This document shows, piece after piece, positions 1,689-29,731 of a DNA stretch of 64,000 bases (position 1 is the stretch's first letter; each line of letters begins with the position of its first letter). The stretch covers positions 9,173,000 to 9,236,999 of the forward strand of contig OZ005691.1 of assembly GCA_963930775.1 (NCBI GenBank). The letters are read 5' to 3'. A model generated the notes under the pieces. The model ran no database searches, was not told where the DNA came from, and saw nothing but the letters and a program-made list of their open reading frames with translations. The DNA is from Cliona cf. orientalis (taxonomy: Eukaryota; Porifera; Demospongiae; Clionaida; Clionaidae). A program made the position numbers and the translations under genes.

Positions 1689-2780
1689 TTAGAGTTCGTC
1701 TTTAACTGGTTGAATAATTGTATCAGCGAAGAGGATCCTGTTTGGATGCTGAGCTGGGAATGCATTCATAGGAGGGTAGCCTTTCACAAAGTATTTCTCA
1801 GGGCTAATGTTGTCTTCAGCGAGACAGAGGTTGTGCAGTGAGTCATACACCTTGTGAAACCTGAGAAGAAAATTAATGTACATCATTAATTAGCAGCCAT
1901 TAGTATTAAAGTTACTTTAATTATTTTCTTGAACAATACCAGTCTATAGTCTAAGAATGTGGAGTAGCTATTATTATAGCAAACTACCTCTTAAGCTATG
2001 CTGAGTTCCATTTCAATTGATCAGATTTAAAAATTACACTTACCAATAGAACATATCTTCTACAACCTCAAGGGAAAACCTCTTTGTTTCTTCCGAAATT
2101 TCATAGCTGTTAAGTGAAGGAGTCGATTGTTCGCCCTCCTTGAACCAACCAGTGACGGTATGGTTGGTCTCAAAGTCAACGTGCGTCTGTCCAAAGTACT
2201 TCAAACCAGGAAAACCACCTTCTCCATTGAATAATTTGCTGTAAGTTATCTCAAAAATGTCCTTTAGTCCTGCTTCAACAGCCTCAAAGGTTGCCAGGGC
2301 AACCATAGGATCATTGCTTTTCTTAGCTCCGGAGCCCCAAGCGTAAATGAGCATTCGCACTGCCTTGCTGTCGTCTCCCCAAAGATGTCGAAGAATAGCT
2401 CCATAAGACCCAAAGCGATTGGGTGTGTATCCCAGCACTGTCTCCACGTCGTGAAGAAAGAGGTTGTAGTGGAAGTTATCTTCATCGATGAACACGTTCA
2501 CTCTGCGTTCCAGGTCGGTCTGGGGATTTGGAATGCGAATCCAGCTGTCTAGCACGTCAGCTGCTGCTAAAGCAAAATACGACCAATACGGTACAAACTG
2601 GATGCGTTTCGAAGCTGGGATGGAGTCATCCGCGAGATACTTAAAGAAATTGTGCTGCGATAGATTTATTTGCATTTCTTCGATGACATCCATCACTTCC
2701 TGGAAGGTGTGCTGCCCCGACGCACAACAGAGGCTAGCGCCTGCTACAAGCAGAACGACGAAGGATGATCTTAGTTGCAT
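1689..2780 (-). CDS. Gene A: ER-retained HO-like domain protein, KDEL terminus
   Basis: Two exons, complement(1689..1860, 2044..2780), give 302 residues; the intron is phase 2, inside a Trp codon. A hydrophobic signal peptide covers about residues 1-22. The core is predicted all-helical, with likely metal ligands in three patches: Glu100/His104 (EDNFH), Glu166/Glu169 (FEAVE) and His200/Glu204/His207 (HVDFETNH). Aromatic-rich motifs YFALAAADVLDSW and RHLWGDD are shared by all four paralogs. A separate second exon encodes a Pro-rich tail (YPPMNAFPAQHPNR) ending in KDEL, the ER-retrieval signal. The layout resembles bacterial HO-like, possibly diiron, oxidoreductases, but that is recalled family resemblance, not a search. 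N-glycosylation sequons occur at N39 and N206. No substrate can be assigned. The gene model is very secure; the fold assignment is moderate. Confidence 0.85.
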
Positions 2781-2857
2781 ACTGTAATTTCTCTTAGTTT
2801 GCAGATATGGAGCAGACGATCGTGATGTTTAATGTGGATGTCAAAGGTATTGCGCCT

Positions 2858-2865
2858 CTTTTATA
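2858..2865 (-). promoter_or_regulatory. TATA box of gene A
   Basis: TATAAAAG on the minus strand lies 78 bp upstream of the gene A start codon, in a GC-richer patch. Genes C and D have similar TATA boxes 90-110 bp upstream, so this looks like a shared core promoter. Confidence 0.6.
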
Positions 2866-4328
2866 CGCGCTGCGATTGCATGCGTACACGATAACTTGGC
2901 AGCCACGCCCATCGACTGCGGTTGCTTTCTACACGTACGCTTACCTGCGGGTAAAGATCGACGAAGTTGATGGTCCATCAACATCAAGTCATCTTAAGCA
3001 CGTGGGCGCCAGACCAACAGTGATCTACGATGAGATCATACAAGTGAGTCCCAGACCCTTCCTCTTGTGCAAAGGGGAGGAAAGGTCAGGGCTATGACAT
3101 GCTATGATGACTCGCTTACCATCACTGAACTGAGCATGTTCGGGGGGGGGGGGGGACCTCAAGGAGGGGCGGTGATACATTACTTAGCGTGGCGATCGAG
3201 CTAGAGGTAGTCTACAACTAGAAGGATGCCAACTCAGCACTGAAAGCTCATTTGGGGGTGGGGGAGGGCCCGTGGTCGTGCCTACTCCAGATGCACTCTG
3301 AAGCCATCTCCAATTACAAACAGGAAATGAAGTAATTGTGGCCTTAGTAATCCTCCTAGCCAGATTAGGCCCAGCAAACTCAGCCAGCAGCTGCCTGCTA
3401 TTACTGCATAATATAAAGCAGTGAAAAATTTTAAATTGAACACCGTGCTGGCTTTAATACTGATTGCTGGTCTGGATAGGATGTTTCCGGCCTTAAGGCT
3501 TGGACCGTGGCAGTTCGAATTTCAAAGGAGCCCAAGTCACCATGCTGTAGCGGCCCTGAACAGTGTCATGGAGCACATGCATGTTCAATGCGTGTAATAA
3601 TGCAATGATCAGAGACTATCCCATATTCTGTACACGTACATATTGGATCATTTCATTATATGTATGTAAGTAACATCCTTAAGTTATGCAATGTTACGTA
3701 ATCATTAAATGCTTTAAAGTGGCATTACTTGAAAATGAAAACCTATGACAAACTTTAAACTATTTCTAGAATCATTAATATTTTCATATTCACCTGTATC
3801 TGTGCCAAATTTCACGATTCGATACCTTATGATTTGATACCTTTACTGCTTCAGAAAAGAAAATTTATAGCTACTAGGGATGTAAATAGCTACATCTGCG
3901 TATGGAAATTTATATAGAACATTTCACTCAATGGACCTATTTCACAAAGCTCCATGGTATCATTAATTTTGCTAGGTAAATTTTGAAGACCATTATATAA
4001 CGTTCAAGTTCCTATTTAGTACACATGCCCATGCACACACTTTGTATTAGTATGCATGGATCATTATTATGGTACATGAAGGATGTAATAGTCTTATGGG
4101 AAGCCTGACGGCGGTCTTTGGCAATACAATTAATACATACCAGTTTTTTTTAATCTCCAAATGATATACAGAGTGCGATACCATCCACCTAAGGGCCCAT
4201 TAAATTGAAATCGATACAAGGAGCAATGAAGTGAGTCTGCTAACTCATACAATGGATCCAAGTCCTTGTTCAGTAACTATGATTTAGTTGGTCAGATAAT
4301 AGTGGCTATGAATTAATTTGAACCTAGC
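2866..4328. other. Intergenic between gene A and MFSD12-like gene 1
   Basis: This stretch separates the 5' side of gene A from the 3' end of the first transporter. It contains G-rich runs (about 3141-3153 and 3250-3270) and AT-rich filler. A 96-codon open frame at 2807-3097 overlaps the gene A promoter and has no support as a gene. No other gene was recognised. Confidence 0.5.
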
Positions 4329-6577
4329 CTATGGTAAGTTCATGTATGACGTAGATAAAAATTTGGATGGTTCATATTCAAAGTTATGGTCCTCCTCTCT
4401 CAGCTTCGGAAACACCGAGTCCTTTTCATCTTCACTGTCACATAGGTTAGCCTCATGGTTACCTGTTCATATAAAACCATAAATGCAGTAATCAATTTTG
4501 AAACGGTTTTTACTAAACAAAATTTTCGCCAAGCCTAACACTACCTTCTTATTTGGTGTAATAATTTCGCCTATGTGGTAAGTATCACCATAATATTATC
4601 TCAGTTAGTTCCTATATTCGGTAATTACGGGACAAAGAATCAAAATTAAATTTACCAATGAGAGCAGGAGGTGAAATTGGCAAAATTTTAATTTTCGGCC
4701 GTACGGTATTATATATTATGGTTAGTTGATGCTATGGAGAATAGATTATGCGTTGTCAGTCGTGCATAATTACAATACTGAATCTCTACTATCAACAACC
4801 AGTGTGTGATGGATTAATCATACACATTATTGTTACAGTAGTACATTCTATGATCATTGGATGCGCTAAAGTACTGTATTGTAATTTATGCTATACCATG
4901 CAAGGGCTTAAAATGTAGCTAGACAGCGCTATCGCTAGCTGTTAGCTAACTGTTAATTGCTAAAATCGCCCATGATGCCAAATTCGTGAGATATGTTGGA
5001 TGTATGCTATCCAGAACACTTCAGTAGTTACACTGGCAAAGCATAGTTATGGTATAGCTTTTTGAGTGTAAATTGTATTCCCACTTCTGTTTTAGGAGCC
5101 ATCAATGCATGCTATTGTTAAAAGCAATCTCATTCTATAGTATGACAATATATGATCATACCAGCTTGAATGGTTCCAACGTCGGGTGGAAACACCTGTA
5201 CACTTCCCACTATGGCAGCTGTCTTCTCCTTTCTTTCTTTCCACCATTCCCAGCCATCCAGTACGGATATGATGGCTATTGCACCAAGGCCTAGCAGAGT
5301 GGCTGCAAATGGTGTGTACACCATTGCCTCTCGATAGTACAGGGATGAAGCAGGGCTGCATGTTTAGAAATCAATCGTAATTACTAGATGTGGTTAGCTA
5401 ATTTAAGAGTAAGCCCCTGGGCACGAATCATGATTATCTAGCCCAGAAGATACAACAAAGCTTGCCTTTTGAATGAGTGCATATGGGCACTAGTTAATAG
5501 ACTCACACCCTTTGGATGTTATTTGGACATGAGAACCAAGACTTAGTGATATTGTGTTCAGCATCACCTCATGCATCAGAATATTATTAAATATGATGGC
5601 ATTTAGTGTATGAGTATGTAATATATCAAAGTGCATGCATGTGCTAGATAGCGGTAAAGGATTAATGATCAACCCAGCCGGAACGTACGATGCATGAGCT
5701 GTTAGCTGATCATACATTCATTGATCACGACTCTATAGAATTCTGCATGGGGTAACACACAATGTCGTGACTGTGATCATTCAGTATGACCATTGTCTGA
5801 CCTAGCTATACATGAGATAAATCTCATTGATTGTGCATTGTTTATGCCAGTATTCAGGCTTTGACTTACCCTTATAATACTCATGCCTGCAATTAAGCCA
5901 CCTGTGAAAATTTGGCTATAGTAGTTGCATCCATGGATCAGCTGTGTATGCACTTGTGGCACAGTTGTCATTATGACATTGTGCCTTTGTCTGGCAAAGT
6001 GTGAATGTCTACTTATGTTATGAATGAATTGTCGTGAGTCCCAAGTGGGTAGTGCATGGCACTCCTACGTTCTAAGTTGTATAGTAGCAACTAATAAGTA
6101 GCTATTAATTTTGGCATTGACTGTTGTAGTAGACCCTGGCTGGCTTCATTTATAGCTGATCTTCATGGCACGCATAATAGTATGCATCATAAAAAAATGT
6201 TTGGACAAGCTTCACTGCTGATTTTAATGTGATCAGCAGCATGCATGTATGTATGCATCATAAAAAAATGTTTGGATAAGCTTCACTGCTGATTTAATGT
6301 GATCAGGAGCATGTATATTTGTATGGAAGGAATAGCAACATGATTAATGAAAGAATTAGGAGCAGTCTCCATATATACCTTGAATCAGGTGGAGAAAGCT
6401 GCTGAATGATTTCGTTAACAGCACCGTTAGAGAAACGATCAGCAAACATCACCCAGCCATAAACAAATGCAGCACTTCCCTGCAAAATTTTAATTATGCT
6501 ATTAAAATTTCATCTTACATGGTTTATTATTTGCTTTAACGGAGCTATAATCCACTGAAGAAAGGAGAGGGGGGGGG

Positions 6578-6615
<38 letters not shown>

Positions 6616-9110
6616 ACGAAGTATCATCTAATACATACACTATGCTTTCCAATCAGTAGTGCAATCATTGAGAGGGAAATGACCATGAGTATTGCACCTC
6701 CAAGTCCCAACAGGATGATAGCAACATAAACATTGTCTCTACTCCAGTTGAAATTAGAATTAGGGTCATCGGTGGGTTGCTTCAGATAGAGCCATACCCT
6801 GCATAAAATATGTGTACTAACAGGAGAACAATCAAACTAATCCTACTGTTACTATAGTAGTGTTATTTGGTGCGTGAGTAAGTAATAAGTACTTAAAGCT
6901 ACTATAAAAATCACAGTGCAATATACGCTGTCAGCACAGCCTACAATGTCATAATCTCGCGTGACTACGGACTTGCAGAAAGCCCAAGATGCGGACGCAC
7001 ATTGCACTTCTCAGATTCCGCATTAGATTGCACCTAGCGCCCTTGGTTGGTTTGATAGCTTTTTTATCAGTAAGGTATTGCATGGGTAATAAAATTAATA
7101 GACTATTCAAGTAAGTGTTGGAGCTCTAATTTTTTTTTATCAATCTACAATGTTTTACAATCATCAAAACTTACAGAGCTCCCCACACGACCACTGTTCC
7201 CAAAATGTACATGATCTGCAATCATAAAGTAATGAAATCATTATTCATCCACCAGATCCACTCTAATAAGAGTAGCTACTAGTATCTGGCCAGCAAGTTA
7301 GAATAACACAATGTCATGTTTGTAGTTATAGTCCTGGCATTTTATTTATTATTCCTGTGATTCAGAATCATTAATTTTATGCATGAATAGCTAATAATTA
7401 ATAATGTATTTACTTTTACTCCTAGCTTCTTGTTTAGAAGTTTCACAAATACTGTCATGACGACACTGCTTACGTATAAGACAAGGGGACCAATTGCAAT
7501 ACTGGGCTAGAATTGCAAGAAGAGTGACAGATTATTAAATACTGTACAGTTAAAATTAATTACTTATTCTGACCTCATTCATTTTGAGTGTATTAAGGAA
7601 ATAGAGTGGGAAATACTGCTGAGTCAGCACTGTGATGATCTTTGCGGCCACAAAAATGCAGATAACCTAAGTGGACGCACGTGCACAATAGCATAAAGAA
7701 TAAGGTCTTCATTTGCTTATTGTATAATTATCTCACAGAACCAAAAACAGCTTCAGTTAGCTAACTGGCCATGGCACGCTAGGTACTCTGGCATCAGCAT
7801 GATAATTGAAAATTAAAATACTATCAGCTAATCAATTATTCCTAAGCTCTAATCAAAATTAGGGTTAATTTCTAGCTATCTCTCTAAGATTCCTTACCAA
7901 ATAAAATCTTGGATTCATAAACCATTTGTACCATTTGAGCTTCAGGAGTGCCTTGGCAGGCTTTTCGCGGATGAAGATTTGAAAAGGCAAAGCTAATAAG
8001 AATCCCAGGACAGTTACAATCAGTGCCATCATCTGTATTACAAAATTAGTAGCTATATAAACTTTGATGCCATAATAATTGATGCATTCATTTATTTACC
8101 CAAAATACACGTTGATCTGTAGGATCGAGGTTATCCATATTCAAGCTGCGATTGACTTTTACCAACAAGATCCAGAACAACACAAACACGAACAAACTGC
8201 CAGCCACTTGAAATCCATACCTACGTATGATTTGATGCACATCATCATCATTAGAGTGATTTTTAATACCACCTCCATATCTATGCATGCACGTATGCAC
8301 AGTTGGATAGGTCCAATTAACTGGACTCATAATATTATTGATATACTATAGCTAGCAAAAATACCATGACTTTTCAGCTGCCAACATGTAGCTATGATAC
8401 TGTAGCCAGTACTAGCTACTCGAATCAAGCTAAGTTTCATAATAATCACAATATCTACTCAGATCCACCACATAAGCCAACTATAGTAATAAAAGCACGT
8501 ACCATAGCTAGGTGCCTAATAATCAGTATGTTCAAGTTGACAGACTACTAGCTAAACCTCTGAATTTCAATGACGTTGTACTGAGTTTACTACTGCAGAT
8601 ATCGAGTCTTGCACTCCTTCAGTTGTGTACATACCTGATTGAACTAAGCTCCACTTTCACATTCTTGTCCGATGTTAGCTCTGGTACCATAGCCAGCTGG
8701 GCAACTTGCGTAGCTGCCCAGCCAAACTGGAACACAATTGCAAAGCTGGAATAGTACAGAACCTTGTAACTGTCTGGCACTCCTGCACAGCCAAAGCACT
8801 CGTGCCACACGAAGAAAAACGAGCAAACAAATGCAATTATCCCAATCAAATGAAAGATTTTTCTTCGGCCGTACTTGCATTCACATTGGTCCGACCACAT
8901 TCCAATTAACGGTGTAAATAGCGCACCGGTAACGTGTGCTATGATGAAGATGTGTCCAACACTCTCATGTGGAATCCGCAGCACTTGCTTAAAGAATGCA
9001 ATCCCGTACGGGAACCACATGCCCCCTCCAGCAAGGACATTCAGCATGTGGCCAGTACCGAATGCAAATCGTTGCAAAAGAGGAAGCTTATCTTCAGTTG
9101 ATTTCTTCAT
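4329..9110 (-). CDS. MFSD12-like transporter, copy 1
   Basis: Ten exons, complement(4329..4462, 5162..5355, 6379..6479, 6639..6798, 7175..7215, 7414..7506, 7574..7666, 7898..8032, 8100..8220, 8635..9110), encode 515 residues (human MFSD12 has about 480). It is a 12-segment major-facilitator protein. Family landmarks are the N-terminal RFAFGTGHMLN, the loop Asp motif GMWSDQCECKYGRRK, FQFGWAATQ, PELTSDKNVKVEL and, late in the protein, GSAAFVYGWVMFADRFSNG. MFSD12 in vertebrates is a lysosomal/melanosomal protein needed for cysteine import; substrate here is inferred. The N terminus carries DKLPLL, an acidic-dileucine-type lysosomal sorting signal. I end exon 9 at GTATGA and add exon 10, an acidic 45-codon tail, because copy 2 supports the same splice in the same phase; reading through would stop at 5130. 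Confidence 0.87.
6182..6311. repeat. Two-copy tandem repeat in transporter intron
   Basis: A unit of about 72 bp is present twice, sharing a core with ATGTTTGG and AAGCTTCACTGCTGA and differing at only a few positions. It lies between exons 9 and 8 of MFSD12-like copy 1. It is a local duplication with no visible function. Confidence 0.8.
6569..6613. repeat. Poly-G run and (GA)n microsatellite
   Basis: A run of about 12 G is followed by about 16 GA repeats, inside the intron between exons 8 and 7 of MFSD12-like copy 1. Confidence 0.9.
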
Positions 9111-9539
9111 CGTTTTAGCTAACTCTTTAGCATGTGGTACCTATCTAGTAGGTTTACAAATGCTACAAAGCTAGCTGGTGTAGGTGGTCACTTAGTTTAT
9201 TCTCTGCATGCATAGGCTTGGCAGAGTGCTGTTTATGCACGTGCCATGATGTTACATACAGCCTGCGGTCTATTGTGTCTGAATCAATCATGCATGTGAT
9301 GTCACCCTATGCAACAATCATTCAGATCAATCCATGCAAACATGCACGGCCATGCATGATATTGTATTAGCTTGATCTGCAATGTGGGAGTATAGGTTTA
9401 TGCAATGCGACTAGCTTCACATCACGCGTGATGTGTCATGAAGACTTGTGTGTATTATTAAAACAATGACGTTATGCACGAACTATTATATTATATGGCA
9501 TTGTGGGTATTATTATGCTGCTGCTATAGCTAATAATGA

Positions 9540-11050: not shown

Positions 11051-11084
11051 CACTATCCTGTAATAGCTACTGATTCTATAAGTA

Positions 11085-11305
11085 GGGATGACCCGAATAT
11101 GCCATATTATTATATATGTAATACATTACAAAAATATTAATTACTCAGAGCAACTTGAATTAAAAGATTTTTAACTTTCATTTTCTTGATCTACACTGCC
11201 AGATTATCTATCTATCAAGCCCATGGAAACAATCAGGTGTATACCTGAATAAGCTGTGTAGAGAAATCACAAAAAGTGCTAAAATCTCATGTTTACATAA
11301 TGACG
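11085..11305. repeat. Direct repeat, left copy, flanking the secreted-protein gene
   Basis: Starting at TATAAGTAGGGATGACCCG, this stretch is a close copy of 15942-16147, through GAAATCACAA and GTGCTAAAATCTCA. The left copy is about 170 bp upstream of the secreted-protein start codon and the right copy about 40 bp after its stop. Confidence 0.8.
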
Positions 11306-11478
11306 TCATAAATTCAATTATGCATGAACCCAGTACCTTGCACCTAAATAATGAATAATGAGTTCTGTACTGATATAATATAGTCACTTCCAGCATGCGG
11401 GCGGATGATGAGAAACAACGAATTATCTGGCCTAACCATCTCTGTGTGTAGCTGCTACTACTACTACCTACCTACAAG

Positions 11479-15903: not shown

Positions 15904-15941
15904 ACCATGCTTAACTGAACTGTATTAAGTTTCTGTAGACT

Positions 15942-16545: not shown

Positions 16546-19026
16546 CTATGTTGACAAAGTGAATTCGAGTTCACGCTCAAGGGTATCCACAACTCCCTTT
16601 GAAAGCAGTGAGTCTTCTCTACTTTCATCACCAAACTTCACCACGCCTGTATCGGCACCTATGAACATTTACTTTATAATTGTTTGGATGGATCGGAGCA
16701 AGATTCTAAAGAGCTACCATTCATAATATTATTATGCGACAAACTTGGGCATATGCATTCTCAAATGTCTATAAGTCAGTGACATAATATTATCATAATG
16801 AGGCTGTCTTCATTCTGCTTCACGGAAGAAAATCTATGTACAATGTGCAGTGTACAATGACATACTAGTTTGAATGTTTCCAACATTGGACGCAGCAGCT
16901 ATCTTCTTCTCCTTTCTTTCTTTCCACCACTTCCGGCCATCCAGTACGGATATGATAGCTATTGCACCAAGGCCTAGTCCAGTGGCTGCAAATGGTGTGT
17001 ATACCATTGCCTCTCGATAGTACATCGCCAATGAATCTGGGCTGTGAGTGTAAATTATTATTGGCATGGATCTGATTATTAGGTACTTACTTAGAATCTG
17101 CTGGAGCAAACTGCTGGATTATTTCATTAATAGCACCATTGGAGAAACGATCAGCAAACATCACCCAGCCATAAACAAATGCAGCACTTCCCTGATGTAT
17201 AGTAACAATTAACATACACTATTATTATTATACCAATAGTAAGTCAGCAGTGAAAGATCAAAGTAATGGTGGAGGATATCATCTTGGAAAATTCTTTTCA
17301 GGGATTTACTTGTTTAGGGCATTAATTAGGTATTGATATCTTGGTCCTTTATAGTTCTGGAGGTACCACTGTATATCATTAGTTATTTATGGTCAAAGAG
17401 AAACTTAGAGTGCATTAGAGAGCCCAAGAGATTCAGAGCTAGCTATAGGAGTGGAGGTATCAGCCTTTGAGCAAGCTCACACTGTATTTTCCAACCAATA
17501 GTGCAATCATTGAGAGTGAGATGACCATGAGCGTAGCACCCCCGAATCCTAGTAAGATTATGGCGATGTAAATACTATCCCTACTCCAGTTAAAGGAGTT
17601 GCTGGTGTCATTGGTGGGATGTTTCAGCAACAGCCATACCCTGCATGTGTGTAAGCAAAAAAGCTGATAATAAACAAGTATAATAGCTAGCAGTTTTTAA
17701 TTTGCTTACAGGGATCCCCATACGACCACAGTACCTGAGATGTACATAATCTACAACATCAATAATAATGCATGGTTGTACCATGAACGAAAATGCGTAA
17801 CCTTAATATGTACCTTTATTCCTAGCTTCTTATTCAGAAATTTCACAAATATAGTCATAACAACACTGCTGATGTACAAGATGAGAGGACCAATGGCAAT
17901 GCTGGTCTAGACATGAAATAAGTTTCATGAGAACCCAATATTAAGATTAGATTACAAACGCCTATTATTTTGCTAACCTCGTTCATTTTGAGCGTGTTTA
18001 GGAAATATAATGGGAAATACTGCTGAGTTAGGATTGTGATGATCTTTGAGGCCACAAACACACAAATTACCTACGAAATGCATCACAATAATAGCTATTA
18101 TTGATAATTATCGTAGATACCGTTACCAAATAAAACCTTGGATTCATAAACCACTTGTACCACTTGAGTTTTTCAAGACTCTTAGAGGGCTTTTCACGGA
18201 TGAAAATTTGAAACGGTAGAGCAAATACAAATCCCAGTACAGTCACAATTAATGCCATTATCTAAATATTATGTGGATATGATTAATAATAGCAAAACGC
18301 ATCAATCACCTGTTCAACTTACCCAAAATACACGTTCGTCTGAGGGATCCAAGTTGGCTGTATTCACACTGCGATTAACTTTTGCCAACAGGATCCAGAA
18401 TATCACAAACACAAGCAAGTTTCCTCCTACTTGAAACCCATATCTACAGTCATAAAGAGTATGGTCATCTCTCTCCGCCATATACATGATAGCGCATGCG
18501 CACGAAATTACGACGACCCTTACCTATACGCGCGTGCGGTTAAATACCTGATTGAGTTCAGCTCCACTTTCACGTTCTTATCCGATGTTAATTCAGGTAC
18601 CAGAGCCAGCTGGGCGATTTGCGTGGCCGCCCAGCCAAACTGAAACACAATCGCGAAACTAGAATAGTACAGAACCTTGTAGCTGTCAGGCACTCCTGCA
18701 CAGCCGAAGCACTCGTGCCACACGAAGAAAAACGAGCAAACAAACGCTATCAGGCCCATCAAATGGAATATTTTCCTTCGGCCGTACCTGCAAACGCACT
18801 GGTCCGACCACATTCCAACGAACGGCATAAACACAGCGCCTGCCACTTGCGCTATGATGAAAAGATGGCCGACGCTGGCGTGAGGGATTAGCAAAACTTG
18901 CTTGAAGAAAGCGATGCCGTAGGGAAACCACATGCCTGCTACGGCGACGACATTTAGCATGTGGCCAGTACCGAACGCGAACCGCTGCAGGAGAGGAAGC
19001 TTTCCCTCAGGTGAGTTCTCTGGCAT
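16546..19026 (-). CDS. MFSD12-like transporter, copy 2
   Basis: Ten exons, complement(16546..16658, 16866..17041, 17091..17191, 17481..17640, 17710..17750, 17814..17906, 17978..18070, 18127..18261, 18323..18443, 18548..19026), encode 503 residues. Exon lengths 2-8 (121, 135, 93, 93, 41, 160, 101) equal those of copy 1, so the two arose by whole-gene duplication. The start is the ATG at 19026 (MPENSPEGKLPLL). The MFS loop motif appears as GMWSDQCVCRYGRRK, with FQFGWAATQIAQ and PELTSDKNVKVEL after it. Introns are shorter than in copy 1. Exon 9 ends at GTATGT and exon 10 encodes an acidic tail (FGDESREDSLLSKG) that has diverged from the copy 1 tail. Copy 2 lacks the DxxxLL spacing seen in copy 1. 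Its predicted role is a lysosome-type solute (possibly cysteine) carrier. Confidence 0.87.
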
Positions 19027-20598
19027 CTTCAATCCTTTTGCTTAATCTTGAATCAGTAGCTGCAAACGCAACGTGGCGTCAGTGCTTATGGAAGGGGGTG
19101 GCACCATTATTATAATAATCATTATTGTTGAACTATTAACCCTTGCACTTTCAATGATGTACCCGCGGCAACCCAGTGCACTTCCTGCCTGGTCACACAT
19201 GTGCAGAAGCTTAAGGCAGCAACCTTAAAATATTCAATTATGATTATTAATAGACATACAGTCTGCTCAGTATGTATGTACACAGGTGGCTGATATTTTG
19301 TAGCTACAACAATTGGCTATTATGGCTAGTAAGCTAGTTCTGGACTAGCTACTAATTAATCAACATGCATCAAAATGTGTGCAGTCACCCTGCCTGCATG
19401 ACAGATCAATATTATTTTCTTTGCATGATTTGACGATACCGGTGAGGGGGATATCAGTGAGTCAACTTTGAACCATCTGCCTAGAATTGTCCAGAAAAGG
19501 AAGTTACTGGCTCTGATTCAGAATTGCAATCTAAATCTGAAAGTGACAATTATCATAATACTATTATTATTATTATTATTATTATTATTATCATTATGAG
19601 GTATAGCCTGCAGACTATGATCTGATAGAGTAAAGATCTATCCAACATGAAAGTGCAACAAGTTCACAACTTAGCTAACTCATCTAATCAGGTGACTGTG
19701 TTCCCAAGTTAGAACTGTAGCTGCTAATCCCTAACTGATAACCATCACGCCCAACTGTTGAACTTGAGGGACTATCCTGTTGCTCACAACAATAATAATA
19801 TTGTTATTTTAATGTTACAGTGCACATTAGCACAATGTCATAATAATTATTATTTTAATAATAATATTTATAATATTATTCATGCTGGAGGTGAGTAGTG
19901 GCCGGTACCTTCCTTTTTAGTTCATACGTTTATTTTGTATGAGAACTATAGCAATTCAATGACAGCTAGCTAGTTGTTCCAGCTAGTGGACTAAGGGCAC
20001 AGTTACTGTATTGATATTATTTTATTGCTGGTGTACCAGTGCATGGTCCATAATAATTACAAGACTTAGCTAGTAGCTAAGGCCAGGTTGTTTAGTATCA
20101 TAATGTTTGAACTTAGTGCACTTGAACCCACTCAGCTTGCTCCTTCCTTAACGATATTCATGCGTGCTAACATGCAGAGGTTATCAGGAGCAGAGGCCAC
20201 AATGTCCATGATGTAATCATGAAACGTCTAGCTAATAATGATATCAGAAACTGCTAACCAGACCCAGTGCATGAATAATTATTATGGAGACTAGCTAGCT
20301 TCCTCCTATTGACTTGTTGTGGTATTCATAGATTGCACTACAGATCTGACCTTGCTTTGAAAAATAATTTTTAGGCTGGCATGTAGGTGCGATAGTGACA
20401 GCTATTAGTGATACCATTGACGATGTCAATAGCTTCCTGCACATCATCATAATTAGTGTAGATAAAATTAATAATTAACATCATAATAAATAGACCAACT
20501 CTACAATAATAATAATATCAGGTATATATCACACAAAATAATTATTAATACTAATTTCAAACTGTTGTAATTAAATCTGTTCAACCATTATAACTAAA
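19027..20598. other. Intergenic between MFSD12-like copy 2 and gene B
   Basis: The part to about 19800 is the transporter 5' flank that is duplicated at 10299-11040. It includes an (ATT)n microsatellite near 19560-19595. The remainder is AT-rich, with TA-rich hairpins. No gene was recognised. Confidence 0.55.
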
Positions 20599-21628
20599 CT
20601 ACAGTTCATCTTTGAAGTTAAGATTGTCCGTGTACAGAACTCGGTTTGGATGCTCAGCTGGAAAAGCATTCATTGGAGGGTAGCCTTCAACAATGTATTT
20701 TTCAGGGTAGATACTGTTTTCAGTGAGACACAAGTTGTAGAGAGAATCGTAGACTTTATGAAACCTGGAGATATCAATCATAACATCAGCATAGTACAAA
20801 ATTAATAAAACAGTGTATCTCAATTTAAATTAAGCTGGGAATCAATATGGCATGCAGTTGATAATATAGGATTTACCAATAGAACATGTCCTCAACCACT
20901 TCCAAACTTAACTTCTTCGTTTCTTTGCTTATCTCATAATTTGCTAGAGGTCGGAAGGGCTCATCTCCCTCTTTGAACCAGCTGGTGACAGTGTGGTTCA
21001 CTTCAAATTCAACATGTGTTTGTCCAAAATATTTTAAGTCTGGATATCCATCTTTCCCGTTAAATATCTTGTCATAGGTCACTTCAAAAAGGTCTTTTAG
21101 TCCTGCTTCAACAGCCTCAAAGCTTGCTAGGGCAACCATAGGATCCTTACTCTTCTTAACTCCAGAGCCCCAAGCGTAAATGAGCATCCGCACTGCCTTG
21201 CTGTCGTCTCCCCAAAGATGTCGCAGAATAGCTCCATAAGACCCAAAGCGACTGGGTGTGTATCCCAGCACTGTCTCCACGTCGTGAAGAAAGAGGTTGT
21301 AGTGGAAGTTATCTTCATCGATGAAGACATTCACTCTTCGTTCCTGATCGGTTTGGGGATTTGGGATACGTATCCAGCTGTCTAGCACGTCAGCTGCTGC
21401 TAAAGCAAAGTAAGTCCAGTAAGGTGCAAACTGGATGCGCTTTGAAGCTGGAATTGACTCGTCAGCAAGGAATTTGAAGAGGTCATGGTGAGAAAGTTCC
21501 AGTCGCTTTTCTTCTATGACCTCAATCACTTCTTGAAAGCGATACAACTGTCCAGAGCTACCCTTGAAGTTGAAGGTGGTGGCAATGAACAGAATCGAAA
21601 TGCACGTTATGGAGCCAGAGAGCTGCAT
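20599..21628 (-). CDS. Gene B: ER-retained HO-like domain protein, KDEL terminus
   Basis: Exons complement(20599..20764, 20877..21628) give 305 residues, with the same phase-2 intron in a Trp codon as its paralogs. Signal peptide MQLSGSITCISILFIATT precedes the same helical domain: EDNFHYNLFLHD, RHLWGDDSKAVRM, FEAVEAGLKDLFE and YFGQTHVEFEVNHT, so all candidate metal ligands of gene A are kept. The tail reads YPPMNAFPAEHPNRV and ends FKDEL. The middle of the gene is nearly identical to gene A in nucleotides while both ends differ, suggesting gene conversion. The probable TATA box is distant (21849-21856). Predicted soluble ER-lumen enzyme of unknown substrate. Confidence 0.85.
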
Positions 21629-21848
21629 TTTGGTGTGGATATTATGATGCAGAATCCAAGCTTGAATGCGCTATTATGCCCGAGCCCATCGAGATCCACC
21701 CACTCTCTGCACGTTTGCGCATGCGCATTAATAAAATTTGTCAACGGGAAGTAAAGCGTGGTGAAAGTTCAAAACGGTTGCAAACCTCTTCACGACCTAC
21801 AGTGCACTTTATTATAGCTAAATGGCTTTATTATTTTATAGCCATGTG

Positions 21849-21856
21849 CTTTTATA
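21849..21856 (-). promoter_or_regulatory. Possible TATA box of gene B
   Basis: TATAAAAG on the minus strand, the same octamer as gene A. It lies about 220 bp upstream of the start codon, so it would imply a longer 5' UTR than in the paralogs. Confidence 0.35.
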
Positions 21857-22011
21857 AGAGCAGGTGTGTTGCACTTCCATCTCAACATGTTCTTCCCCGT
21901 GCATTAATAGAGCTGTCTTGTCGTAGACATAGCTAAACTTTTCTAGTTTTCAGCTGTCTCAAATTAAAATTTGCCAGAGCAAACCACTCACTATAAGGAC
22001 AACTAGTGCTC

Positions 22012-22058
22012 ACTGCGTTGAAGGGCTCATACGTATACTATGAGCCCTTCAACGCAGT
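22012..22058. repeat. Perfect 20-bp inverted repeat (hairpin)
   Basis: Arms 22012-22031 and 22039-22058 are exact reverse complements around a 7-nt centre. The arm contains GTTGAAGGGCTCATA. It lies alone upstream of gene B. Confidence 0.85.
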
Positions 22059-22094
22059 CATAGGATAAAGAGGAGTGGCTAGGCTCGAGACCAC

Positions 22095-22600
22095 TAGCCT
22101 CGTACCCAGGCTCTAGGGGGAGGGGAAAGGAGAGCCTGGTATCAGTTGCATGCGCATGCGCTTAATTTCCCCAGATTCTGGGGAAAATCGGATATTTTCC
22201 GTATACTATCCGTGTACTTGACCTTTAACCCAGGCAAGGGTTCAGCAGAACTACGAGAAGGACCTAACAACGAAGGTATTTCAGGCAACGAGTGGGCTGT
22301 GTTTGTGCTACAATGGCTTACTGAGCGTTCTTGGCCTCATTCGATGTTTTTCACTGCTCGAAGGAGTAGGAGGTAAGCATTGATCTTGATAGATAGATGC
22401 CCAATGAGGCTTGCTTGAATTCGTAAAACTACTCTGGACAACGCCATTGAATAAAATAGCTTCGCTGTCGAGATACAGCGCTCTTCAATTGTTGATTACG
22501 TAACTTTTGTTTTAGTCACGTGGCTTTAATTAAGCGCATGCGCACGCAACTGATACCAGGCTCTCCTTTCCCCTCCCCCTAGAGCCTGGGTACGAGGCTA
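22095..22600. mobile_element. Foldback transposon with 9-bp target duplication (Mutator-like)
   Basis: Terminal inverted repeats of about 70 bp (22095-22168 and 22527-22600) begin TAGCCTCGTACCCAGGCTCT. The 9-mer CGAGACCAC flanks it on both sides (22086-22094 and 22601-22609), a perfect 9-bp target-site duplication, as made by Mutator-like transposases. The interior of about 360 bp has no transposase, so this is a non-autonomous element. The end sequence resembles the element at 53308-53620. Confidence 0.85.
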
Positions 22601-23556
22601 CGAGACCACGTGCTGAACTGCAAACTTGAGATCCACCCACAATTCTGCAAATTTGCGCGCATGCGCGATACGCGTCATCTGATAATGTGTGACCACATTC
22701 ATATTGAAACTAGCTATAGGTGCATGTCCTCTGTTGTTAACAAAGCAGGTTGCAGTTTATTTGTCAATTCCTCTATTATGTCAACTCTACTAGCAACAGT
22801 TGCTACAGAGGGTCAGTCGCCAAGCCAAGGGTATCTTTGATAAATCTCCCTTTTACTCTCATCATCACGTCATCATTAATTTTAATAATTTTTATGTTGT
22901 CACTCGTATTGTATAGCTGCTCAAGAAACAATAGTACTACATATAGCTATTAAACATCTACGTCATTCTGATTTACGTACAGAATTTATAGACCTATATA
23001 TAGAATACATAGAGAAGGCAGGGATTTTTAAATAATACAGTGTCATCCCCCCCCCCCCACCACACACACACACTATAGGTACACATGCATGATTATACTC
23101 ATCGTCATCGAAAAATTAATGTCCAATAAAAAAATATTTGATTCAAATTCAGATGGACAGATTTACAATAATCATCATTACTTTCATAGCATCAACGAAT
23201 TATATTTTATAGAATAATAATAATATGGTTATGGCCAAAAAATAGCAATAAACTGTAGCATAATAATGAGGTTAATATGAAATAAAACTGATTGGGGGGA
23301 TATAGCTGTGCTCTGATAGATTTAATAACCAATAATAGTAATTCACTTATCTTGTATGCTAAGCATAAAACAAAAACAATTTTTAATTAAGGCATATCGT
23401 AATCTATACCTAGTGTTTGCTGATACTTAATAGTAATAGTTATGTTGGTATAAGCAATAATTTGTCGTCATAAGAATGGAAGGTCAAATGTGTATATATA
23501 TCATGCATCAGTTCCGTTATTAGTGTGTATCATAATTATTATTCGTATATACTATA

Positions 23557-25101
23557 TCATAGCTCGTCTCTGAATCCGAATGTGTCGCTGTCAAACAAGA
23601 CTCTGTTTGGATGTTGAGCTGGGAAGGCATTCATTGGTGGGTAGTCGTTGACAACATACTTTTCCGGATAAATGCTGTCGTCAGCAAGACAGAGATTGTA
23701 GAGTGAATCATACACTTTGTGAAACCTGTGAAATGTAACAATACTCCATATATAAACAAAGATTCTGCAAAAGGATGGACTTCTATAATATTATAGGTTG
23801 GCACGTGTTCAGCTAATAGTGCGCATTATGTACGCATATTGTTATTTTCTCTACATTATATTCTTGATTGGATACAGCTGTATCATTATGGTATAAAAAC
23901 ATTTGCAAAGCTTACTCAATTTGGCTTGAATTACTCAGGTTAATCCAACCATGTGATCCAGACAACGCAATAAGAATCGAGTAAACACGTGCTCTTAATT
24001 TGGTATGAATTACATTAGCACTTGACCTTAATTATTCTCTCATTAGTACTAATTTGGAGCTCACTATAATACTCTACTGTATCATTGCATGGATGGGATG
24101 TTGTCCTTAATCCATTTTTACACAAATCCTCTGCCTAAATGCAGTTAATTTGGCACCTCACACTGCAATATTCACACCATATTTCTCCTGTAATTGGCAG
24201 CTTTGTCTACACTCCTACTTAATGCTCCATGGCAAGCATCCAGACATACGACTTTAATTGTCATGCCCACGGATTAACCCCATGTCCATATTTGACCATA
24301 GTTCCAGGTTTGTTAGAGAAAAGTAAATAATTGCATAATAGCTACTTACCAGAAAAACAAGTCATCCACGACTTCTAGTGACAGCTTCTTTGCTTCTTTG
24401 GAGATTTCATAGCTTGCAAGTGGTCGGTGAGGCTCGTCTCCCTCCTTGAACCAACTGGTCAGGGTGTGGTTTCTCTCAAAATCAATGTGGGTTTGTCCAA
24501 AATATTTCAAGGCTGGAAGTCCATTTTCTCCTCTGAATACAAACTCATTGGCACTCTCGAAAAGGTGCTTAAGGCCTGCTTCTACTGCTTCAAAGCTGGC
24601 CAGGACTACCATGGGATCTTTCGTTCTGCTTGCTACGGAGCCCCACGTGTAAACGAGCATGCGCACTGCTCGGCTGTCGTCGCCCCACAGGTGGCGCATG
24701 ATGGCTGAGTACGATCCAAATCGACTGGTTGTGTATCCTAGCACTTCTTCCATATCGTAAAGGAACAGATTGTAGTGGAAGTTGTCCTCGTCTATGAAAG
24801 TATTCACTCGACGTTCCAATTCGGTTTGAGGATTCGGAATGCGAAACCAACTATCGAGCAAATCTGCACCAGCAATGGCGAAGTATCCGAAGTACGGCAC
24901 GAACTGCATGCGTTTATTTGCTGGAACCGATGTGTCGGAGATGTATCGGAAGAGATCGTGTTGCGATAGTACCACTCTCTTGTCTTCGATGTAATCGATA
25001 ACTTCCTGAAAGTTGTGCGTGGACGTTGCCGCCGAGTAACGGCTGACTGCTGCGGCTACCAGCAGAGAGAGAAGGGCGCATAATATTCTTGTCTGCTGCA
25101 T
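23557..25101 (-). CDS. Gene C: ER-retained HO-like domain protein, RDEL terminus
   Basis: Exons complement(23557..23725, 24350..25101) give 306 residues; the intron (624 bp) is phase 2 in a Trp codon. The true ATG is at 25101 (MQQTRILCALLSLLVAAAV, a signal peptide). The core keeps EDNFHYNLFLYD, RHLWGDDSRAVRM, FEAVEAGLKHLFE and YFGQTHIDFERNHT, so the predicted ligand set is intact. It is more diverged than A and B (two FFW at exon end instead of FYW, YDMEEVLGY). The C terminus is FRDEL; RDEL is an accepted variant of the ER-retrieval signal. It lies tandem to gene B, 2 kb away. Confidence 0.85.
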
Positions 25102-25187
25102 CGTTGAATGACGGTTGTTATTGAACAATGGTTGCTAACAGTTATTCGTTGAAATGTTTTTTCTGCTTTGGCGCTGTGAAATACGCC

Positions 25188-25197
25188 TATTTATACT
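25188..25197 (-). promoter_or_regulatory. TATA box of gene C
   Basis: GTATAAATAG on the minus strand, about 90 bp upstream of the gene C ATG. Confidence 0.6.
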
Positions 25198-26870
25198 ATG
25201 TATCCGATGCGCAGCCCCACCCACTTATCTCCACCACCCACGTGTACGTGCTATGAAACAATACAAGTTGATTGCAAGACTTAGCTTCCGTTGTATATAA
25301 TTGGATTATGCAACCGCGTCAGCTGCTGAATTGGCTAATGTTACATCACCCACTAGTCTTGTATTATTAGCTATAGCTCCCCTAAGCTGCCAAATGAAGG
25401 CCAGTCTCATGATCGTGTGCATTGTATCTATAGTATAAATCTTTTATTGCTTCAAATTGGTGACTCCCTGCGACCGCACAGTCACTGGTATTTGTTGTGG
25501 AAAGTGCATGCAGTGAGTGACAAGCTAATAACAAGTGGTAATCTCATGTGGTGAACAGTAAACTTAGAGTAGTGTGTCTCGCATCTACATCATGTTTTCT
25601 AGTATACGAATATACAATGTCATGTGCATGTAGCTAGCTACGTAACTACACAGTCAGAGTATAAAATTATTATAACACAGATGGAAGTGCATATTGATAC
25701 TGAAGCTAAGTGGGCTGCTGTAACAGTGTAGTAGCTAGATACAAAGGATAAGTGTATATGCGCACGCAAAATCTTTTCCCTGGATAAAAATAATGCCCGT
25801 GAGTTCTTGCCGCGAGTGATGCAACGTACGTAACAGCTCACCATAATTATTATTATTATTACGTAGGTGTCTATGGAGTACCCGCGGGGACAAAAAGAAC
25901 AGTGTTTATGCTTGTGTATGCAAAATTGTTTGTACACTATCGCATTAACCATATTAAGGCTAAAGGCGTTAACCAAATAGCTGCTGTTTTTCCACTCTGA
26001 TGCCACTTTGTGTTCCCCTCACAGCTCCAAATACGCCCTTCAGCCTTAAAAGCACTTTCTCCTTTGTTGTACAACACAGACTCAAGATATTAAAAGGGCG
26101 TGAGCATTATTAATTGTGTTACGGGATTTATCAACCAGACGCCTAGTAATCCATAACTTTAGCAGTTGAAAGGAGCACCAAATTTGGTCTTGTCGCCGTA
26201 ATTTTGATTCCTCGCAAAGTTAAATAAATCCTCCTATCTTGGTTGTCTCTAGAATCCCAGGCATTTGTTTGGCTCCGTACACAAACAGTGATAGGTCTTC
26301 ACACAATGAGATTATGGTGAGCATCATATGAGCAGAATTCATGTATAGTGGGCGAAACCCAGTCACAACCTCCCCCAGACAAACTTCTGCGTACACCTTA
26401 CAAAAATAGTTTGGATAGTCTGAAAAAAATATTTCAGATAACCAGGTGGCGCCACACCATGGAGTAGCTATAGCTAGCGCCAGAGCTTCAAAGTTGACCA
26501 GCCCATTCCATTGATGACTTTTCTTTAGATAGAAGAATTGCCACATGGCAGAGTACAAACATGGGTATGAAACAGCAGTGCAAATTAACCGCATCACAGC
26601 ACATATATAATGGGTGATGTTTATCTTAGCGGTTAAATGTATTGCACAAGACTGTTAACACTCATGCATATGCACTGCACGACAGCGTGCTAAAAATAGC
26701 GTAAATATTGACAAGCTCAATAGAGCGGTTCTAAATTACTCTCAGGGAAGCAGTATACTTCCATAATAATAATATTATGTGCGTGGGTAAGGCTTTGGAA
26801 TTTAAGCAATGTCCATAATAGGCAGTACAGTATGCATGCATGAGGATACCAGACTGGATTCACATCATTT

Positions 26871-26951
26871 ATAGATCAGCACTTTCCAACCTAGCTGGTC
26901 CATAATAATAATAATATACTGGACCAGTTAGGTTGGAAAGTGCTGATCTAT
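26871..26951. repeat. 32-bp inverted repeat (hairpin), one mismatch
   Basis: Arms 26871-26902 and 26920-26951 pair over 32 bp with a single mismatch around a 17-nt AT-rich loop. The arm contains GATCAGCACTTTCCAACCTA. It is comparable in form to a pre-miRNA-like or foldback hairpin. Confidence 0.85.
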
Positions 26952-27405
26952 TAATATAAACATCTCATGCATTTCCTACAAATCGCCTTAGCTGTTATCA
27001 CTCCCACAATAATGCTAGTTCTATACATACAGCTGAGTGTAGAAGGAAATATATTTTTATAGACTGTCCCATTACAGCCAAAATCTAGTGTGCTACAACA
27101 GCAATTGTGTATTATCGAAAGTGATTTGTGGTGATGTGTCACTAGTTCCACTTCAATTTTACTATACTTCCTAACTGATTGATATGGCTATCTTCAGTGT
27201 ATGCACTTTATAATGCTTCCTTTATACTACAATGATGAAAATTAATTATGAGATCACAGCAATAGTAATGTAGTACTAGTGAGTAGCTACATACACCAGA
27301 TTAAATTTTGTAGTTCACTATATATGAGTCTTAGAAATGGCTATTAATCTATAGAATCGACAAGTCTTAGTACTAGAGCTGGAGCCACCTTTTTCTCTAC
27401 TCTCA

Positions 27406-27406
<1 letters not shown>

Positions 27407-27483
<77 letters not shown>
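27407..27483. repeat. (CT)n microsatellite
   Basis: An uninterrupted CT dinucleotide run of about 37 units. Confidence 0.95.
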
Positions 27484-27485
<2 letters not shown>

Positions 27486-28652
27486 CCGCTTGCATTCGCC
27501 AAGATTGTTATTAAACAGTATGATAACTAGCTATTAAGTTAAAACACCGCTAACACTATTTTAACATCAATATTATGTATGCATTGCAGATTCCAAGGGG
27601 GTATTTTATTAACACTGATAATTATTATTGCACTACGTAGCAGAGAGATTGAGAAACACAAGTTGCTTGCTTAGCATCGATAAGACGATAATTGAATCAT
27701 GGATTATGGTGGACAAATTTAGAATAGGGATATTTTTTTAAAGAATCTGATACTATTTATAGTACCCTTGTTGCCAACACCATGGTCCATGGCAGCCATA
27801 TACAGTTAATGATTGAGTACCGTCGCGGCTATGTTTGGCCCGCTACATACAATAAACAGGAACCAATAGCCCTCTCGACCATGGGACCATTCTTTCAGCA
27901 AGGTCTTCTAGCCAAAAGAAGAAGGGGGAATTGAGCCAGAGCTGTGGCAACCCCCCACAGAACTCCCCAGCCTTACATGACTTTCAAAGGAAATAAACAT
28001 GGAGTGAAGGTCATCATGTTCAGAAGCTTAGTCCATTTTATGCTACATTGTTGATTTTTTTAGTCCCAAGTAGCTCACAAAAATTATAACAGTCATGGTA
28101 ACCTACTCAGTACTGAGCTTCTTGTCGAGATCTTCGACTTCTATGCACGCACGGAGGGGGTAGCATAGGGCCGGGGGCGGGGCAAGTAGCGGAATTTTTT
28201 CAAGTATTGCGCATGCGCTTGCGTAAGGTTACGTATGTCCCACCTCCTCACGTCACGCTGTTATTTGGCTTTTGATTGCTGCTGTGTACCACTAAAAAAA
28301 AACCACCAAAAATCTAGCAATAGCTAGTGGTTAATGGTAGCCTTATCTCCTTCTTTAATAATACTGATACTTTGTAAACACCAGCTCCATGGAAATAATT
28401 AATGGGCTACATTATCAAAGCATAGAATACCTATGATCATGATCAAAATCAGCTGCAGTATAGCTAGCTAATCAGTCCAATATTTTTGTCTAACTGTTGA
28501 TACTTATTAGCGACATCTGGCCAATAGTAATATTCATAAAAATGATTATTGTGAATAAGATGGGGTGTATTATAAAAAATAATAGAGAATGAAGTGTGAA
28601 TAAAATCTGAATACAAATCTGAATAAAATTAATTATTATTACATAGTCCGTT

Positions 28653-29731
28653 TTACAGTTCATCTTTGGCAGTATCAAACTGCAATACTCTGTTTGGATG
28701 TTGAGCTGGGAACGCATTCATTGGAGGGTAGTCGTTCACAATGTACTTTTCAGGACAAATGCTGTCTTCAGCAAGGCAGAGGTTGTAGAGGGAGTCATAG
28801 ACTTTATCAAACCTATAAATAGTAGGAATGAAAAAAAAATAATAATCACGGCTAGTAACATTACAAGGCAGTAAATGAGGATAATATTAGCTAGGCCCAT
28901 GATGGAGCTTTCTTTATACAGCTACACCAGGACGATTAAACACTTTAAATTGGATGCAATAATTAAGGTAGATACTATCTGATACTTTAAAATTTCATAC
29001 CAGTAAAAGAGATCTTCCACTACTTGCATAGAAAGTCTCAGGGTTTCTTCGCTGGCATCATAGCTACCAAGAGATTGGAAGTCATCATCCCCTTCCTTAA
29101 ACCATCCAGTCACCGTGTGACTCATCTCAAAATCAATGTGCATCTGTCCGAAATATTGCAGACCTGGAAATCCATCCTCCCTCTTGGAGATATTCTCGTA
29201 AATGGACTCGAACAGGTATTTGAGTCCGGCTTCTACAGCCTCAAAGCTTGCCAGCGTCAGTAGAGGGTCATCGTTCTTCTTGGCCCCAGCACCCCATGCG
29301 TAAACGAGCATGCGCACTGCCTTGCTGTCGTCTCCCCAGAGGTGTCGCAAAACGCCCGTGTAGGAGCCGAAATCACTGGTCGTGTATCCTAGCTCGTTCT
29401 CGACGTCGTGAAGAAAGAGGTTGTAGTGAAAATTGTCTTCGTCAATGAAGACGTTCACTCTCCGTTCCAGATCGGTTTGGGGATTGGGAATTCGGAACCA
29501 GGAATCTAGGAGATCGGAACCGACCATGGAAAAGTACGTCCAATATGGCATGAATTGCATCCTTTTCTTCGCGGGCACAGAGTCGTTGGAAAGAAACTTG
29601 AAAAGTTCGTGATCCGCTAGCTTTGCGCTTTTCTCCTCAATGGCGTCCATTACTATATGAAAGTTGCCGGCCGATGCGCAGTAAATGCTACTGCTGGCGA
29701 TGAATAGCAAAATGATTGCGAGTGATCCCAT
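28653..29731 (-). CDS. Gene D: ER-retained HO-like domain protein, KDEL terminus
   Basis: Exons complement(28653..28812, 29001..29731) give 296 residues; the intron is phase 2 in a Trp codon. If the intron were read through, the frame would end at 28922 with an unrelated tail, so splicing to the KDEL exon is preferred. Signal peptide MGSLAIILLFIASSSIYC. The core retains EDNFHYNLFLHD, RHLWGDDSKAVRM, FEAVEAGLKYLFE and YFGQMHIDFEMSHT: the His/Glu/His set is kept but the Asn-based sequon seen in A-C is replaced by SHT. The tail has YPPMNAFPAQHPNRV and ends AKDEL. It is the member nearest to HELLS, which starts its 3' end 620 bp away. Confidence 0.85.

Follow-up and report, generated by a model that had tools for sequence, protein, structure and literature searches.

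What are the proteins encoded by a tandem array of four genes in the sponge Cliona cf. orientalis, each with a signal-peptide-like N terminus and a KDEL or RDEL end, and where did these genes come from? The array lies in a stretch of 64,000 nucleotides (hereafter the window; assembly GCA_963930775.1, contig OZ005691.1, positions 9,173,000 to 9,236,999), on whose minus strand positions 1689 to 29731, from the stop codon of gene A to the start codon of gene D, hold four two-exon genes, A to D. A sequence-only reading had taken the products for heme oxygenase-like (HO-like), possibly diiron, proteins of the endoplasmic reticulum (ER), perhaps of bacterial origin and with the KDEL exon added later. 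We found that A–D are related to AetD, a cyanobacterial diiron enzyme, and to its mainly cyanobacterial family. We think it reasonably probable that they constitute a new animal subfamily of AetD-like HO-like dimetal oxygenases (HDOs), retrieved to the ER lumen by their KDEL/RDEL ends.

The gene products are related to the diiron enzyme AetD

AetD is the nitrile synthase of Aetokthonos hydrillicola, which converts 5,7-dibromo-tryptophan to an indole nitrile and is represented in the PDB by entries 8TWN/8TWT/8TWW, 8JI2-8JI7 and 8ZVG/8ZVH. When protein A was compared with all PDB chains using phmmer, AetD was the sole match at E up to 10, with E-values of 5.6e-12, 6.7e-11 and 7.8e-11 for three AetD constructs and a match spanning A residues 20 to 250; UndA, CADD and the TenA-like protein 3OQL gave no sequence match in this search. 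No Pfam or NCBIfam model exceeded its cut-off for A or C, and the subthreshold matches of A to RAG2_PHD (E 0.077) and of C to PRK07143 (E 0.027) were rejected as chance. The Pfam model Haem_oxygenas_2 matched 8 of the 45 members of an alignment of window and bacterial sequences (A3; best E 1.3e-4), gene C not being among them. A profile built from 58 bacterial relatives and no window sequence found A–D with E-values of 4.1e-37 to 3.5e-35. In control searches with default filters, none of 1000 shuffled and none of four reversed sequences was reported at E up to 100; with the filters off, the best of the 1000 shuffles among the matches listed reached E 1.5. Homology to AetD is above chance. Moreover, AetD itself was matched at E 2.3e-76 by the A3 profile and at E 9.7e-78 by the bacterial-only profile; since both find it strongly, AetD belongs to the same bacterial family. 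The core of the sequence-only reading, an HO-like kinship and fold with a full set of diiron ligands and a KDEL/RDEL end, is thus strongly supported. The relatives found are bacterial, and AetD, which that reading had not named, is the closest.

To the same effect, an AlphaFold2 model of exon 1 of gene C, computed with the three paralogs and 41 bacterial rows (exon 2 lies outside the model), was confident (Table 1) and adopted an HO-like helical bundle. Foldseek comparison of this model with the PDB returned AetD chains at ranks 1 to 21 (E 1.6e-7 to 5.4e-6; template modeling [TM] scores, normalized to query length, of 0.68-0.74), with structure-aligned identities of 20-22%. Next came the TenA-like 3OQL and UndA (E 0.02-0.03) and then CADD, up to E 0.06, all with weaker fold similarity (TM 0.41-0.64). 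An HO-like fold resembling AetD is strongly supported by the model, and the comparison with HO-like folds thus placed AetD first, ahead of the TenA and UndA types to which the sequence-only reading had looked.

Each of the four paralogs is a single open reading frame (ORF) after splicing, and the array exists as first described, now with exact coordinates. The encoded proteins comprise 302 (A), 305 (B), 306 (C) and 296 (D) residues and are 65-76% identical in pairwise comparisons. Every gene contains one GT-AG intron, of 183, 112, 624 and 188 bases in A to D, respectively, at an identical site, in phase 2, that splits a Trp codon (TG/G). Because the same Trp codon is interrupted in all four, we infer that the array arose by duplication of a single spliced gene. 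A tblastn search of the window with the A–D proteins gave 58 alignments at E up to 10; 19 of these lay outside genes A–D, each with E of at least 0.2, and no fifth copy was found.

The gene models are also supported by their substitution patterns. Over both exons, the ratio of nonsynonymous to synonymous substitution rates (dN/dS) was 0.07-0.12 in four of the six pairs, with dS of 1.3-3.0, which is near saturation; the other two pairs were saturated. Exon 2 taken separately (first 48 codons) gave ratios of nonsynonymous to synonymous differences (pN/pS) of 0.18-0.21 in all six pairs, and the introns could not be aligned by blastn at E 1e-3 in any of the six. By these measures, purifying selection acts on both exons, the exon bearing the K/RDEL end is selected as protein in its predicted frame and the array is no chance feature. 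Since exon 2 has a low pN/pS and the introns are unalignable, the predicted splice joining the core and K/RDEL exons is supported by conservation.

Table 1. Exons of genes A–D and the ligand-bearing motifs of gene C (window coordinates)
Feature	Position	Strand	Evidence or content
Gene A exon 1	2044..2780	-	Signal-peptide-like N terminus and most of HO-like domain; AetD match E 5.6e-12
Gene A exon 2	1689..1860	-	End of last helix, tail with YPPMNAFPAQHPNR, KDEL at 1692-1703, stop
Gene B exon 1	20877..21628	-	ORF and paralog alignment
Gene B exon 2	20599..20764	-	Ends KDEL (20602-20613)
Gene C exon 1	24350..25101	-	AlphaFold model with bacterial relatives, pLDDT 88.7, pTM 0.82
Gene C exon 2	23557..23725	-	Ends RDEL (23560-23571)
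Gene D exon 1	29001..29731	-	ORF and paralog alignment
Gene D exon 2	28653..28812	-	Ends KDEL (28656-28667)
EDNFH, gene C	24775..24789	-	D and H at AetD Fe ligands D76 and H79
FEAVE, gene C	24580..24594	-	Last E at AetD Fe2 ligand E140
H-x3-E-x2-H, gene C	24466..24489	-	Positions of AetD H172, E176 and H179

Active site and predicted location

Residues are given here in AetD numbering, which is offset by 21 in PDB 8TWN, as counted from the alignment. The sections of PMC11611611 and PMC10654658 on the AetD site give its Fe ligands as D76, H79, E140, H172, E176 and H179 and assign binding of the substrate carboxylate to Y167. All six ligands and Y167 are kept in the alignment of the four window proteins. 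Indeed, the EDNFH, FEAVE and H-x3-E-x2-H patches occupy the same aligned positions in all four, and the six ligands fall within them, so the invariance of these patches and their placement like the metal ligands of HO-like oxidases, both noted from the sequence alone, hold. The 3-His/3-carboxylate set on three core helices that characterizes HDOs (DxxH; E; HxxxExxH) is accordingly found, by alignment, in each protein. Among the 58 bacterial members, H79, E140, H172 and H179 are invariant, E176 is kept in 57, D76 in 53 (the other five have Glu) and Y167 in 55. The indole clamp residue F44 is likewise kept in all four window proteins, position 146 (Ile in AetD) is Ile or Leu, and N70, E75, D86 and R114, present in 98-100% of the 58 bacterial members, are common to AetD and the window proteins.

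The substrate pocket is a different matter. Five residues of the AetD pocket set (I41, F44, F48, M139, A142, I146, Y167 and S214) are replaced: I41 by Trp or Phe, M139 by Val, S214 by Phe, F48 by Ala or Gly and, in an alignment-dependent column, A142 by Gly; H72 is replaced as well. The Phe that stacks on the AetD substrate (F48) is therefore gone. In SznF this place, on auxiliary helix 2, carries a seventh, carboxylate ligand; the Glu of such a 3-His/4-carboxylate site is Ala or Gly in all four window proteins, and since neither residue is a ligand, Fe1 would keep the open site that substrate-triggered HDOs have. Phe at position 214 was considered as a sign of likeness to SktA and dropped, being the family norm (55 of 58 bacterial members).

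The KDEL receptor retrieves KDEL-bearing soluble proteins to the ER. Proteins A, B and D end in KDEL and C in RDEL, so that all four carry the C terminus of soluble ER residents. Their N termini are hydrophobic (best nine-residue mean hydropathy of 2.8-3.5 in each, from a hydropathy check rather than a dedicated signal-peptide predictor), and after residue 35 no membrane helix is apparent, every 19-residue window in the four proteins having a mean hydropathy of at most 1.05. Beyond the presumed signal peptide there is one cysteine in A, B and C and there are two in D. On these motifs, the proteins are predicted to be soluble in the ER lumen. An N-H-T glycosylation sequon includes the last ligand His of the HxxxExxH motif in A, B and C, but not in D.

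Unlike AetD, A–D add a signal-peptide-like start, an intron and an ER-retrieval tail. Exon 2 codes for 52-56 residues past the split Trp, of which the first ~12 form the end of the last helix of the domain: the bacterial profile covers residues 32-263 of gene B, exon 1 of which stops at residue 251, and exon 2 therefore completes that helix. The tail past the helix, ~40-44 residues that include YPPMNAFPAQHPNR or a near variant before the K/RDEL end, has no clear bacterial counterpart among the alignment rows listed. Thus, the claim that the K/RDEL ends sit on a separate short exon needs amending, since exon 2 bears them in all four genes and also encodes the end of the last helix. That the KDEL exon was added later does not fit an intron inside the catalytic domain, where only the tail beyond the domain is extra; a KDEL exon grafted onto a finished bacterial domain is too simple an account.

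Bacterial relatives, origin and the rest of the window

Relatives were found in bacteria, mainly in cyanobacteria. A tblastn search with A matched 309 of 72,556 plasmid records at E up to 1 (248 Escherichia, 36 Piscirickettsia and 19 Salmonella; Escherichia, Salmonella, Shigella and Piscirickettsia together account for 304) and none of 50,697 phage records. Single-sequence scans of genome contigs and viral contigs found no relative, and an alignment-led scan of the viral contigs again found none; genomic relatives emerged only once the plasmid relatives were added to the alignment. The alignment-led scan of GTDB species genomes then gave 158 pattern matches, and 55 loci encode a relative. Judged by record title, 47 of these loci are cyanobacterial, and the other eight belong to Cupriavidus (four), Burkholderia, Ralstonia, one Xanthomonadaceae and one Desertimonas, a count that leans to such groups because the two scan patterns were derived from two window sequences and from one sequence each of Cupriavidus and Calothrix. 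In whole-genome searches with A3, relatives were present in 22 of 291 genomes of the phylum of the cyanobacterial seed and in 3 of 274 genomes of the class of the Burkholderia seed (seeds included), and in the seed alone among 296 genomes of the Desertimonas phylum and 299 of the Xanthomonadaceae phylum.

Of the 55 loci, 41 are represented in alignment A3 and 46 in the tree and the 58-member profile, which also include L001, L004 and 10 further loci. Nine loci were left out of the tree and profile as truncated, near-duplicate or oddly framed (L011, L025, L029, L034, L038, L043, L044, L049 and L059), five were cut to 245 residues (L018, L027, L041, L050 and L052), and the 58 include an identical pair (L012 and L065). 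The gene D row (P0003) of alignments A1, A3 and A4 consists of exon 1 and ~25 residues read from the intron; the trees and profiles used the spliced protein.

A maximum-likelihood tree of 67 rows, for which two divergent proteins from the Burkholderia seed's class served as the root, grouped the window proteins in one clade (support 100/99), whose stem measures 2.6 changes per site. Long branches meet in this tree, and the AetD branch is itself long. The bacterial rows excluded the window rows in 89% of 200 bootstrap trees, a figure that, given the long branches, is not final. The search for a donor, by quick and maximum-likelihood trees, failed because the stem is too long. The bacterial origin proposed from the sequence alone is plausible in view of the relatives found. 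As those relatives are bacterial, transfer from bacteria to the animal is a plausible and the simpler story. Vertical inheritance, in which A–D would descend from an old eukaryotic HDO family rather than from a gene moved from bacteria, would account for the very long stem and for the absence of a close bacterial relative among those found; set against it, the relatives are bacterial and 47 of the 55 loci cyanobacterial (groups that the search patterns favor), and we regard it as unlikely, if the least so of the alternatives considered here.

The surroundings of the bacterial genes were surveyed through 272 ORFs within 4 kb of the 55 loci, grouped by single-linkage blastp and named from one to three representatives per family. 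Large STPK-AAA-GAF-histidine kinases and other kinases occur at 40 loci, O-methyltransferases at nine, Pyr_redox_3 flavoenzymes at seven, a housekeeping NAD(P)H-quinone oxidoreductase subunit at six, a second AetD-like gene at six, and a CmlS-like/Trp_halogenase-like FAD enzyme and enzymes resembling flavin-containing monooxygenases (FMOs) at five each; L005 and L031 are adjoined by genes resembling glutathione S-transferase (GST). These neighborhoods, counted with no background rate, would suit specialized metabolism, as for AetD, and do not point to a substrate. The kinase neighborhood was not used to argue function, given the single-linkage clustering and the absence of a background. Large sensor kinases are common in cyanobacteria, and the kinase-AAA-GAF-histidine kinase sensors near the cyanobacterial AetD-like genes have 1,600-2,000 residues (e.g., L028:8774-14278).

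Several architectures within the family stand out. Acaryochloris encodes an 890-residue fusion of an AetD-like domain with a Pyr_redox_3 flavoenzyme (L050:7998-10667) of the kind that neighbors the AetD-like gene at seven other loci, and diverged AetD-like tandem pairs occur in cyanobacteria at L007, L011, L019, L020, L026 and L048. Plasmids of Escherichia albertii and Piscirickettsia salmonis encode two-domain HO-like "hypothetical proteins" of ~500 residues (L003:6019-7521 and L002:4983-6551), the E. albertii protein having no Pfam match at E 1e-5. The first half of each matches the AetD-family profile and has all six ligands, as in A–D; unlike A–D, they have a second HO-like half, which has lost some of the ligands, and no KDEL end.

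Elsewhere in the window, an exon at 45131-45538 on the minus strand has as its best PDB match the lymphoid-specific helicase HELLS (E 8.7e-17), ahead of plant DDM1 (E 1.4e-12); because of this HELLS-best exon and the GT-AG introns, the window reads as eukaryotic and of animal type. Domain matches were obtained for 4 of the 10 window ORFs scanned (MFS twice, SNF2 and Ras), and comparing the Ras-like ORF with the PDB gave nothing at E up to 1e-20. An MFS_2 transporter gene is duplicated along with the HO-like genes (minus-strand ORFs 8619-9140 and 18520-19041), and other blocks also match between the regions at ~5-11 kb and 16-20 kb of the window. A dispersed repeat of ~200 bases, 79-93% identical and in both orientations, occurs at 32423-32645, 37866-38055, 41304-41529 and 57727-57937. 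No Rfam family matched the window at gathering scores, nor was a tRNA found in it.

Possible function and rival explanations

If A–D act as AetD does, each would be translated into the ER, lose its signal peptide and be returned to the ER lumen by the KDEL receptor. There it would bind two Fe(II), and the amine and carboxylate of the substrate would bind Fe1 beside the Tyr167 equivalent. As in AetD, substrate binding would then trigger O2 activation and give a peroxo-diiron species; this species would go on to oxidize or cleave the substrate side chain. By analogy, an aromatic amino acid or one of its derivatives is the most likely substrate, held in a pocket rebuilt relative to that of AetD, and the product need not be a nitrile. 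The likely role, again by analogy, is a tailoring step of secondary (alkaloid) metabolism that takes place in the secretory pathway and that tandem duplication has expanded, perhaps for the production of defensive compounds.

Several observations weigh against this assignment. The 58-member profile is not wholly independent, its members having been gathered by searches that used window sequences, and the phmmer match between A and AetD is for that reason the cleaner evidence of kinship. AlphaFold run on the four window sequences only fails, giving no usable model (pLDDT 40.6, pTM 0.29); as the confident model depends on the bacterial alignment, the fold is supported via homology and not independently. 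In the tree, A–D do not fall inside the bacterial clade that holds AetD, but outside the 59 bacterial sequences (the 58 and AetD; support 88/87), on their long stem. At position 48, where the window proteins have Ala or Gly, 56 of 58 bacterial members have Phe and none Ala or Gly; at position 72, where they have Phe, 56 of 58 have His; and at position 142, where they have Gly, 50 of 58 have Thr, in a column that is alignment-dependent and gapped in another alignment. Finally, no biosynthetic partner gene was recognized among the 10 window ORFs scanned for domains. Given the pocket changes and the separate, long-branched lineage, the substrate and product probably differ from those of AetD, and we infer that the oxygen chemistry is the same but that the substrate is another one or sits differently in the pocket.

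The predicted soluble residence in the ER with KDEL/RDEL ends could also suit an enzyme acting on proteins, and ER-lumen iron oxygenases with protein-modifying roles, the prolyl and lysyl hydroxylases, are well established. Such a peptide-modifying oxygenase would act on a chain terminus or side chain. AetD, however, holds a free amino acid at Fe1 through its amine and carboxylate, as the active-site descriptions in PMC11611611 and PMC10654658 have it, and the carboxylate-binding Tyr is kept here; four diverged tandem copies, moreover, resemble secondary metabolism more. We therefore find this explanation quite improbable.

A true animal nitrile or skatole synthase, carrying out the AetD or SktA reaction on (bromo)tryptophan in the ER for indole alkaloids, seems a shade more doubtful still. 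AetD is the only solved relative, the ligands, Y167 and F44 are kept in all four proteins, PDB entries exist with Phe and Tyr bound, and bromoindoles are known from sponges; AetD also takes 5-Br-Trp and Trp, according to the substrate data in PMC10654658. SktA, which converts 5-bromo-Trp to 5-bromoskatole, could be compared through its description in PMC13108848, where it has the same predicted ligand set as AetD and, like A–D, Phe at 214, and, unlike A–D (Val/Gly), T139 and T142. But Phe at 214, as the family norm, is no pointer to SktA, F48, H72 and position 139 differ (142 too, alignment permitting), and the window proteins lie outside the bacterial clade with AetD. That A–D are metal-binding or structural ER proteins without catalysis, for which the changed pocket residues might speak, is very improbable, with six ligands and the Tyr invariant in all four proteins at 65-76% identity and dN/dS of ~0.1; both plasmid proteins examined, in contrast, have lost ligands in their second HO-like half.

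We return to the reading of A–D as AetD-like oxygenases of the ER lumen. Secretory-pathway alkaloid chemistry in sponges has a precedent in OroF, a sponge FMO brominase that, according to PMC12833800, carries an ER signal peptide, has the ER flavoprotein ERFAD as a relative and ends without KEEL/KDEL. It is thus, as is proposed for A–D, an ER-signal-peptide enzyme of an animal alkaloid pathway, and, unlike them, an unrelated flavoprotein without such an end. The same account gives the oro enzymes an animal, not transferred, origin and ascribes OroF to a duplicated animal ERFAD-like gene. A review of HDOs from March 2026 (PMC13108848) uses none of the words eukaryot-, animal, sponge, metazoa- or plant in its main text, and no report of an animal AetD-like enzyme was among the matches listed from the open-license PMC literature.

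Genes A–D are a real set: a tandem subfamily of putative AetD-like diiron oxygenases with an altered pocket and a predicted ER-lumen location, whose function is directly testable. If confirmed, they would place an AetD-like HDO in an animal, in its ER lumen, and would bring a host enzyme class to the question of whether host or symbiont makes sponge alkaloids. They would also add to the recent evidence, in the parts of PMC12833800 on OroF, of a secretory-pathway enzyme in a sponge alkaloid step. A bolder proposal, which we hold to be unlikely, is that the sponge, in its own ER and through a diversified set of bacterially acquired tandem genes, uses AetD-type diiron chemistry to rearrange tryptophan or another aromatic amino acid oxidatively or to cleave a C-C bond in it. 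If that were true, nitrile, carbaldehyde or skatole alkaloids often credited to symbionts would be host-made.

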